Shown here one piece after another: positions 9,769 through 11,803 of a DNA stretch of 64,000 bases. The notes beneath the pieces are model-generated. The model saw only the letters and a program-made list of their open reading frames with translations. It ran no database searches and was not told where the DNA came from. The DNA is taken from positions 6,882,001 to 6,946,000 of the forward strand of contig NZ_JAFQ01000004.1 in NCBI RefSeq assembly GCF_000526215.1, given 5' to 3'. This DNA comes from Nocardia sp. BMG51109 (lineage in GTDB: Bacteria > Actinomycetota > Actinomycetes > Mycobacteriales > Mycobacteriaceae). Positions within the stretch are counted from its first letter, which is position 1; each line of letters opens with the position of its first letter. Position numbers and translations under genes: made by a program.

Positions 9769-9959
9769 CCGCCGGCGCCCCGCCACGGCGTTGACCGCTC
9801 AACTGAAAATCTTTCGGCGATAGCGTTTTACAGTCGGGGGCCGTCTCCCCGGGCACCCGTAATTCTTCCGATGTGAACCGGCCGGCGCGACCACCGAGCT
9901 ATGATCCAGGTCACGCTCGGCTTCCGTGGCAAACCGCGAGCAGATCGGAGACCAGCTCG

Positions 9960-10460
9960 ATGACCGAAACTCTTCGCCCGTTCATCCCTGCCGCCGGATC
10001 GGCTCCGGACGATCGGGATCTCGTTCCCCCGTTGTCCGGCTATCTGACGGCAGAGTCCGAGCACACCGTCAGCGTCCGGGTCGGCGAGGGCACGTGGACC
10101 TTCGACCGGGCAGACATCTTGCGTCTCGATGTGCCGGAGTCCGGCCGATCCGACGGGGGCCGGCCCGAAGCTCCCGGCAGACCATCGGCCGACCGTCCGG
10201 TGCGGGTATGGGTCCGCCCCGGCGCCACAGCGGATTTCACGCAGCGCCGGCGCATCGACCTCGTCGACCGCCCGATGACGCTCGCCCGGCCGCACTCCCC
10301 GGCCCGCGGCGACGACCTGCTGCGCCGCCTGACCGAGGTGTGGGCCCGCCGCCTGCGGCTGCCCGGCACTCCCGGCATCGGCGGGGCCACCTTCACCTAC
10401 TGCCAGACGCGAACTTCCGCGCGCAGCGACGACGGCACGGCCTGCGACAGTCTGGACTGA
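9960..10460 (+). CDS. Hypothetical protein, candidate graspetide precursor
   Basis: 166 residues, starting at an ATG with GGAG about ten bases upstream; no family recognised. The N-terminal half looks folded (strands around VSVRVGEGTWTFDRADILRL); the middle is Pro/Arg-rich. The last ~25 residues change character: they are rich in Thr, Ser and Asp (TRTSARSDD, then CDSLD at the very end), resembling core peptides in which an ATP-grasp ligase joins Thr/Ser or Lys side chains to Asp/Glu. The stop is 12 bases before the ATP-grasp ligase gene, so they form one operon. At 166 aa it is longer than usual graspetide precursors. The function is an inference from the partner gene. Confidence 0.7.
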   Translation: MTETLRPFIPAAGSAPDDRDLVPPLSGYLTAESEHTVSVRVGEGTWTFDRADILRLDVPESGRSDGGRPEAPGRPSADRPVRVWVRPGATADFTQRRRIDLVDRPMTLARPHSPARGDDLLRRLTEVWARRLRLPGTPGIGGATFTYCQTRTSARSDDGTACDSLD

Positions 10461-10472
10461 GGTCCCCATTCG

Positions 10473-11435
10473 ATGGCCGCCCACCCGGCAGGTTCGGTCC
10501 TGATCGTCACCGAAACCGACGATCTGCACGCCGAGGCGATGGCGGCCACGCTGCGAAAACACCATCGACTCAACCCGATTCGCCTCGACATGCGCGAATT
10601 TCCGCGTGCCGGAGGCAGTTTCCGCCTCGATCGAGCGGGCACGGCGCGATCGCTGTCGCATCTGACCGGGCTGGACGACGTCACCTCGGTCTGGTGGCGG
10701 CGCCCGCACCGCTGCGCCGTTCCCACGAGCACACAGGGCGCCGACGACGACTACCGCCAGGCCGAATGCGACGGGTTTCTGCAGGGCCTGCTCTGGTCGA
10801 TCCCTGCGGTATGGGTCAACGACCCCGGCGCCGACCGCACCGCCACGCGCAAGATCGTGCAGTTGGAGACGGCGCAGCGCAGCGGATTCGCGATCCCCGA
10901 GACGCTCATCACCAACGATCCGGACGAGGCCCGCAGCTTCGTCGACTCCCGCCGCGGCGCCGTGGTCTACAAGCGCACCGGGACCGGGCGCGCCGAATTC
11001 TCCGAGACCCGTCTGGTCGCACCCGCCGACCTCGACCGGCTGGGCACCATCCGCTCGGCGCCCACCACCTTCCAGGACTACATCGATGCCGAATGCGATC
11101 TGCGGGTGGTGTGGATCGACGGCATCGAATGGGCGGTGCGCATCGACTCGCAAGCCGGTGTGGGACGGGTGGATTCGCGCCTGGACACCTCGGTGGGTTT
11201 CGGCACCGCCCGCCTGCCGGCCGCGGTGAGCAAGTCGCTGGCCACACTGATGGGCGCGCTCGGTCTCACGTTCGGGGTCCTCGACATCCGGCTCGGCGTG
11301 GATGGCGAGTATTACTTCCTCGAGGTGAATCCCCAGGGCCAGTTCGCCTATCTGGAAATCAAGACCGGTCTGCCCATTTTCCGGAGCCTCGCCCATTACC
11401 TCGTGCACGGTGACGCCACCGTGCCGGGGTACTGA
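10473..11435 (+). CDS. MvdD/PgnI-like ATP-grasp peptide ligase
   Basis: 320 residues, the usual length for graspetide (omega-ester/amide peptide) ligases. A Rossmann-like pre-ATP-grasp part (VLIVTETDDLHAEAMAATL) and a conserved SVWWRRP motif precede the ATP-grasp fold: a nucleotide-binding lysine in VVYKRTGTGR, then the metal-binding C-terminal segment DIRL...FLEVNPQGQFAYLE. These enzymes phosphorylate Asp/Glu side chains of a precursor peptide and form macrolactone or macrolactam links. It is preceded at 12 bp by the candidate precursor. No methyltransferase, protease or transporter gene is adjacent, so the locus is minimal. Confidence 0.88.
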   Translation: MAAHPAGSVLIVTETDDLHAEAMAATLRKHHRLNPIRLDMREFPRAGGSFRLDRAGTARSLSHLTGLDDVTSVWWRRPHRCAVPTSTQGADDDYRQAECDGFLQGLLWSIPAVWVNDPGADRTATRKIVQLETAQRSGFAIPETLITNDPDEARSFVDSRRGAVVYKRTGTGRAEFSETRLVAPADLDRLGTIRSAPTTFQDYIDAECDLRVVWIDGIEWAVRIDSQAGVGRVDSRLDTSVGFGTARLPAAVSKSLATLMGALGLTFGVLDIRLGVDGEYYFLEVNPQGQFAYLEIKTGLPIFRSLAHYLVHGDATVPGY

Positions 11436-11487
11436 GTCACTGTCCCGCCCCGGGACACGCGGTCACTGTCCCGCCCCGGGACACGCG
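11436..11487 (+). terminator. Tandem 26-bp repeats, each a hairpin
   Basis: Two identical 26-bp units (11436-11461 and 11462-11487) start immediately at the stop of the ATP-grasp ligase gene. Each contains the inverted repeat TGTCCC-GCCCC-GGGACA. Two consecutive hairpins right after an operon are best read as a double terminator, or as a duplicated one. Confidence 0.6.
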
Positions 11488-11563: not shown

Positions 11564-11803
11564 CTACTTGCTGGCGGACTTGCGCCGATTCGCCCCACCC
11601 CGGCTGCGGAGTTGCACATGCGACTCCACCAGGACGTTGTGGATGAACCCGTACGAGCGCCCGGTCTCCCGGGCCAGCGAGCGGATGCTCGCACCGGCCT
11701 CGTACTGCTTCTTCAACTGGGATTGCAAGCGGTCTCGGGACTTTCCGGTGACGCGCGTGCCCTTACCCAACGTGGACTTCCCTTGTGCGGGCCTGTCACT
11801 CAT
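11564..11803 (-). CDS. Small helix-turn-helix protein
   Basis: 79 residues with an excellent ribosome-binding site (GGAGGAAGCC before ATG). After a basic N-terminus (GKGTRVTGKSRDRLQSQLKK) comes a compact HTH (YEAGASIRSLARETGRSYGF, then IHNVLVESHV) and a basic tail with RSRGGANRRK. Proteins of this length and pattern are widespread in actinobacteria and annotated as HTH domain proteins. It is likely a nucleoid-type or regulatory DNA-binding protein; the targets are unknown. It is convergent with the ATP-grasp operon. Confidence 0.85.
   Translation of the reverse strand: MSDRPAQGKSTLGKGTRVTGKSRDRLQSQLKKQYEAGASIRSLARETGRSYGFIHNVLVESHVQLRSRGGANRRKSASK

Follow-up and report, generated by a model that had tools for sequence, protein, structure and literature searches.

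A conserved Nocardia gene pair points to a graspetide-type ligase that may cross-link the tail of a protein predicted to fold

Graspetides are regarded as natural products, and gene clusters for ribosomally synthesized and post-translationally modified peptides (RiPPs) are usually sporadic. The graspetides characterised by 2022 are all described as protease inhibitors in the available text of PMC8939145, which also reports a Phhx(1,2)h leader motif in about half of the known precursors. In the fuscimiditide and graspimiditide systems (ThfA-ThfB), as described in the accessible part of PMC12291112, ThfB closes nested stem-loop esters (the fuscimiditide loop has 10 amino acids), tolerates loops of up to 72 amino acids and accepts whole proteins. 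Rosaritide and corallotide, according to the accessible part of PMC13097080, pair their graspetide synthetase with another conserved protein, and long precursors are known. Here we analysed a stretch of 64,000 nucleotides from Nocardia sp. BMG51109 (contig NZ_JAFQ01000004.1, positions 6,882,001 to 6,946,000; hereafter the window), in which a gene for a 166-amino-acid precursor candidate (9960..10460, + strand) is followed by a gene for a 320-amino-acid ATP-grasp ligase (10473..11435, + strand). From comparison of the homologues we consider it probable that this graspetide-like ligase acts on a protein with a predicted fold, whose tail would be tied into nested ester rings that stay on it.

The ligase, an ATG open reading frame (ORF) of MvdC/MvdD/TIGR04187-like type, was assigned from hidden Markov model (HMM), PDB and fold matches. 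Against NCBIfam it scored 217 bits with TIGR04187, 171 with MvdC, 131 with MvdD, 60 with grasp-with-spasm and 20 with RimK; these values lie below every curated cut-off (350 bits for TIGR04187, the SAV_5884-type maturase), and no curated subfamily is therefore claimed. Its PDB sequence matches were MdnB, PruB, AMdnB, CdnC, MdnC and PsnB (E = 4e-30 to 3e-12), followed by two RimK chains at E ~1e-3, and a profile of 16 relatives brought the six macrocyclases alone past 1e-5. A Foldseek search, for which the query was a fused precursor-ligase model with most of the ligase part confident, returned macrocyclases in its top 32 rows, with ArgX, RimK and LysX as the next structural neighbours. Since all three rankings put macrocyclases first, sequence and model alike assign the ligase to the graspetide (MvdC/MvdD) branch and not to RimK/GshB, a placement that rests on these three comparisons rather than on a tree of the ATP-grasp superfamily. 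A preliminary description of the locus had called the enzyme MvdD-type and had named clustering with non-peptide ATP-grasp enzymes as grounds for rejection. No such clustering was seen in these comparisons, and the graspetide branch stands; MvdD specifically does not, as TIGR04187 and MvdC score higher.

In having TIGR04187 as its best-scoring model, the ligase resembles the actinobacterial systems of TgmA/TgmB type (systems with a TIGR04187 ligase, whose precursor model is TIGR04186), from which the pair differs in that sub-threshold score and in that neither the window precursor nor four of its homologues matched an NCBIfam model. Residues D271, E284 and N286, which would bind metal as in ATP-grasp enzymes generally, and K167, presumably involved in nucleotide binding, are intact in the window protein. 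The same E-x-N motif (E284-V-N286; 11322..11330, + strand) is intact in five aligned solved macrocyclases, with Asn at the position equivalent to N286.

The two genes share strand and reading frame, are separated by 12 bp, and have one match each within their own 8.79-Mb genome, whose closest named relatives at the protein level belong to Nocardia. Besides itself, the precursor candidate (also an ATG ORF) has 85 homologues at E<=1, of which the named ones are all from Nocardia. A profile search added four Nocardia proteins and five divergent homologues, and two named divergent homologues come from Phytomonospora endophytica and from a metagenome-assembled genome (MAG) labelled Mycobacterium. 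In 80/80 loci (the best 80 of 170) the ligase gene is preceded by the precursor gene, as it is in 112/112 loci of another collection, some genomes being in both. With 85 homologues and adjacency in every one of the 80 loci, the pair is not a chance arrangement: the 166-amino-acid ORF 12 bp before the ligase is real, and the earlier proposal, in which a long precursor candidate accompanies a ligase of the graspetide branch, is supported.

Most precursor homologues are 137-176 amino acids long. The window precursor matched no Pfam-A or NCBIfam family at E<=1, and among 63 homologues compared with Pfam no family occurred in more than six members (best E 0.0098). Residues 22-97 (10023..10250, + strand) are predicted to form a small OB/SH3-like beta barrel, with strands at 25-32, 36-41, 44-49, 53-57, 79-85 and 91-94; the precursor model is confident for the barrel at ~21-60 and 81-100 and gives a helix at 118-132, with a low-confidence tail, and fold searches with the barrel gave weak matches only. 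The predicted helix (10311..10355, + strand) is amphipathic, precedes the core and may serve as a ligase-recognition leader; the loose motif L..[LAQ]T..W...[LMI] falls on it in 60/63 homologues. Columns of the body are among the invariant alignment positions. One homologue, P0008 of N. wallacei (220 amino acids), carries an in-frame repeat expansion of the GLGTEGSATHGND type between barrel and helix, with its tail intact.

The most telling conservation is that of the tail, residues 144-166 (10389..10457, + strand), which in the window precursor reads ...GGATFTYCQTRTSARSDDGTACDSLD. For its alignment, 207 proteins were reduced to 152 that differ from one another in their last 110 residues, and two mis-parsed rows were corrected for position 144. 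Asp occupies positions 158, 163 and 166 in 152/152 distinct tails; position 146 is Thr in 135 and Ser in 17, and position 144 is Thr in 145, Ser in 3 and Ala in 4. Cys is found at 162 in 150/152 and Ser at 164 in 147/152, the remainder having Cys or Asn there. The spacings 144-146, 158-163 and 163-166 are constant, and length changes are confined to the loop between 146 and 158, which has 11 residues in 130 tails, 2 in 16, 8 in 3, 10 in 2 and 26 in 1. Thus both the donor (Thr/Ser) and the acceptor (Asp) residues of the putative core T144-x-T146 / 11-residue loop / D158-x4-D163-x2-D166 are conserved, and a rigid donor/acceptor frame that holds a loop of variable length is the pattern expected of nested side-chain rings. 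D158, D163, D166 and T146 are also present in the divergent homologues P0211-P0215, of which P0211-P0213 extend two residues beyond D166. The preliminary description had asked whether tail residues are conserved in homologues that neighbour ATP-grasp genes, and they were so wherever the pair was read. Its suggestion of a microviridin-like T-x(5)-S-D-D core fails, the constant frame being [T/S]144-x-[T/S]146 ... D158-x4-D163-x2-D166: S156 and D157 are missing from the short-loop N. salmonicida/alba clade, and D157 is Leu in N. albiluteola. The longest loop, of 26 residues between T146 and D158, was found in N. alni (locus L066, 5391-5972), where S164 is replaced by Asn and all three Asp residues are kept.

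Compared with the microviridin (MdnA/MdnB-MdnC), AMdnB, plesiocin (PsnA-PsnB), CdnC and PruB systems, the Nocardia pair shares the ligase branch, the fold, the intact E-x-N and the Thr/Ser and Asp residues in a C-terminal core; it differs in its 137-176-residue precursor with a predicted beta barrel, in its T-x-T...D-x4-D-x2-D core and in its core-genome spread, and its cross-links are predicted ones. The inferred nested Thr...Asp stem with a length-tolerant loop resembles that of fuscimiditide (PMC12291112), whose spacing is T-x3-T / D-x3-D; the Nocardia pair departs from it also in having no methyltransferase beside it in the window, a long body of predicted fold and a natural loop of down to 2 residues. 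In the available portions of the literature surveyed (PMC8939145, PMC13097080, PMC12291112 and PMC13003496) we found no match for the substrate architecture, the core pattern or the distribution. As far as those portions go, the chemistry would be of a known kind and these three features, including the genus-wide distribution, would be the new part.

A ligase match was present in 144/148 genomes of the genus and a precursor match in 134/148, each of the latter with a ligase; ten genomes have the ligase alone and four have neither gene. In 396 genomes drawn from the phylum, the ligase was found at 1e-30 in 20, three of them Nocardia, with the other 17 scoring far lower, and beyond Nocardia the gene pair itself was met in Phytomonospora and in the MAG labelled Mycobacterium. 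Within the flanks covered, the neighbouring genes of the 80 loci were likewise recurrent (HTH_58 was found in 77, the ABC gene in 75, TetR in 72 and the aconitase gene in 69). We read the pair as a vertically kept core locus of Nocardia, unlike the usual RiPP cluster. None of these four neighbours accompanies the two non-Nocardia loci, around which no shared neighbours were found; in Phytomonospora a GNAT acetyltransferase is encoded on the opposite strand, ~2.6 kb upstream of the precursor. Of 57 ORFs between the conserved flanking genes, 30 were scanned, from 13 of 14 Nocardia loci; they comprised cupins, MarR and PadR regulators, RibD-like and thioesterase proteins, hydrolases and one S9 peptidase, with no exporter or methyltransferase among them. 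A cupin gene lay upstream or downstream of the pair in 6/13 loci (L069, L087, L104, L126, L082 and L130), and none turned up in the scan of the window's immediate neighbourhood. A second, distinct graspetide-type ligase (31-34% identity, E<1e-16) is encoded in three of the 148 genomes (G022, G111 and G136), and two further genomes gave a weak second match near 1e-5.

The ten ligase-only loci have no precursor ORF upstream, although two retain what appear to be its first codons. Comparison of 102 distinct ligases (122 loci) showed that position 286 is Asn in 92/92 that accompany a precursor, and is Asp (nine) or Glu (one) in 10/10 that do not; D271, E284 or K167 is altered in 3/10 of the latter. 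On a tree built from two neighbour genes, covering 76 loci and among them 7/10 of the precursor-less ones, a single clade of precursor-less loci was rejected by the approximately unbiased test (p 1e-8) and 3-4 changes were needed, so that at least three losses of the precursor were independent. Loss of the precursor and change of the catalytic Asn are thus coupled, which is what one would expect of an enzyme whose substrate is the tail.

These observations suggest the following scheme. Helix 118-132, serving as a built-in leader, would dock on the ligase, which would use ATP to activate side chains of tail Asp residues, by the phosphate transfer general to ATP-grasp chemistry, and join them to Thr/Ser hydroxyls. 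The most likely arrangement would be a T146-D158 ring nested within a T144-D163 ring, with D166 as a possible third acceptor; in long-loop members, including the window protein, T150/T152 and D157 would be available for an extra ring. At 18 Da lost per bond, two nested esters would therefore cost the window protein at least 36 Da. The rings would remain on the predicted beta-barrel protein, since the scanned neighbours include no exporter and no recurrent protease and body residues are invariant, and the resulting macrocycle-tipped cytosolic protein would probably bind, perhaps inhibit, an intracellular partner such as a protease. Cross-linking of the tail as such, whether or not a peptide is afterwards released, seems to us highly likely, and that the product stays bound to the protein is likely. 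The preliminary description had left the choice between a new graspetide group and a ligase acting on a folded protein; the genus-wide retention of the locus favours the latter over a new peptide natural product.

Several points weigh against protein-bound nested rings. Beyond anything that rings alone require, C162, S164 and L165 are nearly invariant, and the outer ring cannot be universal because position 144 is Ala in four tails. The loose Phhx(1,2)h motif occurs in 39/63 homologues at non-equivalent places and is not consistent, and in the fused model residues 138-174 have a predicted local distance difference test (pLDDT) score <50 (predicted template modelling score, pTM, 0.69) with no confident docking, leaving substrate recognition without structural support. 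Every independent pair agrees on the N286 change, but there are three such pairs (sign test p 0.25), and three or four events are too few for significance; moreover, 9/10 precursor-less ligases cluster on long branches of the ligase tree. In two precursor-less clades with close relatives (5/10 ligases), the ratio of nonsynonymous to synonymous substitutions (dN/dS) is 0.11-0.18, like the median of 0.16 for ligases with a precursor (453 pairs), so that the ligase seems to be kept there without its tail substrate. Three of the 144 ligase matches are damaged, by a stop in G006 and G099 and an interrupting insert in G063, and the S9 peptidase gene, the sole peptidase among the scanned ORFs, lies upstream of the pair in one of 13 scanned loci (L126).

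Between clades of precursor-less ligases dN/dS rises to 0.22-0.67, and the dN of L147 is about five times that of its relatives, giving a picture of a burst of change followed by renewed constraint. The simplest guess is that the precursor-less ligases (L143-L152) may be repurposed pseudo-enzymes with another role. The boldest form of our proposal, namely a housekeeping graspetide chemistry in which a core ligase permanently staples the tail of one folded cytosolic beta-barrel protein into nested ester rings around an exchangeable loop, no peptide is released, and loss of the substrate has repeatedly left a conserved dead ligase with another job, is tentative and, as a whole, rather doubtful. 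If it were true, graspetide chemistry would move from scattered natural-product clusters into the core physiology of a genus; the pair would be a minimal natural system for a folded protein with a macrocyclic tip and a loop that naturally spans 2-26 residues, and the enzyme could be used to staple protein termini. What becomes of a macrocyclase without its substrate can be followed, as in a natural experiment, in the precursor-less lineages.

Among the alternatives, the one that survives best, though we think it unlikely, is an ordinary graspetide, in which the body is an oversized leader and a cyclic peptide is freed when a housekeeping protease cleaves close to the Gly-rich stretch that precedes T144. 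A GG, GA or GS pair is found in the searched stretch before the core in 50/63 homologues, and alpha/beta hydrolases near two loci (L079 and L130) join the S9 peptidase at L126 as candidates for the cut. A released product sits poorly, however, with a ligase and precursor kept with shared neighbours in most of the genomes (144/148 and 134/148), when distinct second ligases occur in 3/148, with invariant columns in a body that would be discarded, or with the lack of an exporter among the neighbour ORFs scanned.

It is improbable that the ligase has its true substrate encoded elsewhere and uses the 166-amino-acid protein as a partner or activator. MirC, the partner-dependent graspetide synthetase of rosaritide, provides a precedent in the available sections of PMC13097080, and the constraint on some ligases after precursor loss would fit; in the Nocardia pair, however, it is the second protein itself that bears the putative core. 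A partner would have no need of an invariant acceptor Asp, a fixed spacing and a variable loop, and the E-x-N Asn is gone from the ligase where the 166-amino-acid gene is lost. Moreover, the precursor gene is the only place in the window's genome with a CDSLD-stop terminus, and none of 14 precursor-less genomes scanned has one.

By analogy with the carrier protein LysW, to which LysX and ArgX attach their substrate, the ligase could instead attach an amino compound to the terminal Asp, which we regard as very improbable. LysW/LysX-ArgX and RimK do share with the Nocardia pair the ATP-grasp fold and a small acidic-ended protein substrate, here with an invariant acidic end and encoded beside the ligase, and they supply the next structural neighbours after the macrocyclases. 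However, macrocyclases come first by both sequence and fold, D166 is not terminal in P0211-P0213, and the internal Thr/Asp frame (T/S146, D158 and D163) is left unexplained. Least credible is a tail that stays unmodified and serves simply as a binding motif or degron, with the ligase acting on something else: the near-invariance of C162, S164 and L165 would suit it, but an adjacent ligase of the macrocyclase branch, and precursor loss coupled with the change of its E-x-N Asn, would not.

Returning to the window, the gene order is aconitase, TetR, thioesterase, precursor, ligase, HTH_58 (opposite strand), RibD-like and an ABC-type ATPase (opposite strand); from its sequence we take the aconitase gene to be acnA, and from its architecture the ATPase is presumably ABC-F. 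As first described, no methyltransferase, acetyltransferase, protease or exporter with the pair's strand and spacing adjoins it in the window. Upstream, a partly conserved element, GAAAATCTTTCGGCGATAGCG (9805..9825, + strand), is a possible operator by its conserved alignment columns; the strict form GAAANNNTTTCG occurs in 36/86 distinct Nocardia upstream regions, and the longer form once in its own genome. Conserved columns also mark a TATGAT -10-like box, a 5' leader and a GGAG ribosome-binding site (9900..9950, + strand), with TATGATC in 68/86 of those regions; a sigma-70 consensus scan gave no site there. The pair had further been described as closed by tandem hairpins: two tandem palindromes TGTCCCGCCCCGGGACA do follow the ligase stop (11441-11457 and 11467-11483, + strand), but they have no terminator-type T-run and a terminator scan gave no site there, so that closure by terminators is unsupported. 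The small HTH_58 protein (11564-11803, - strand) weakly matches the CRISPR-repeat-binding Cbp1 model (NF040595, 36 bits against a cut-off of 140). Farther along the window, the - strand at 54546-54662 matches a domain of group II introns (RF01999, 97 bits).
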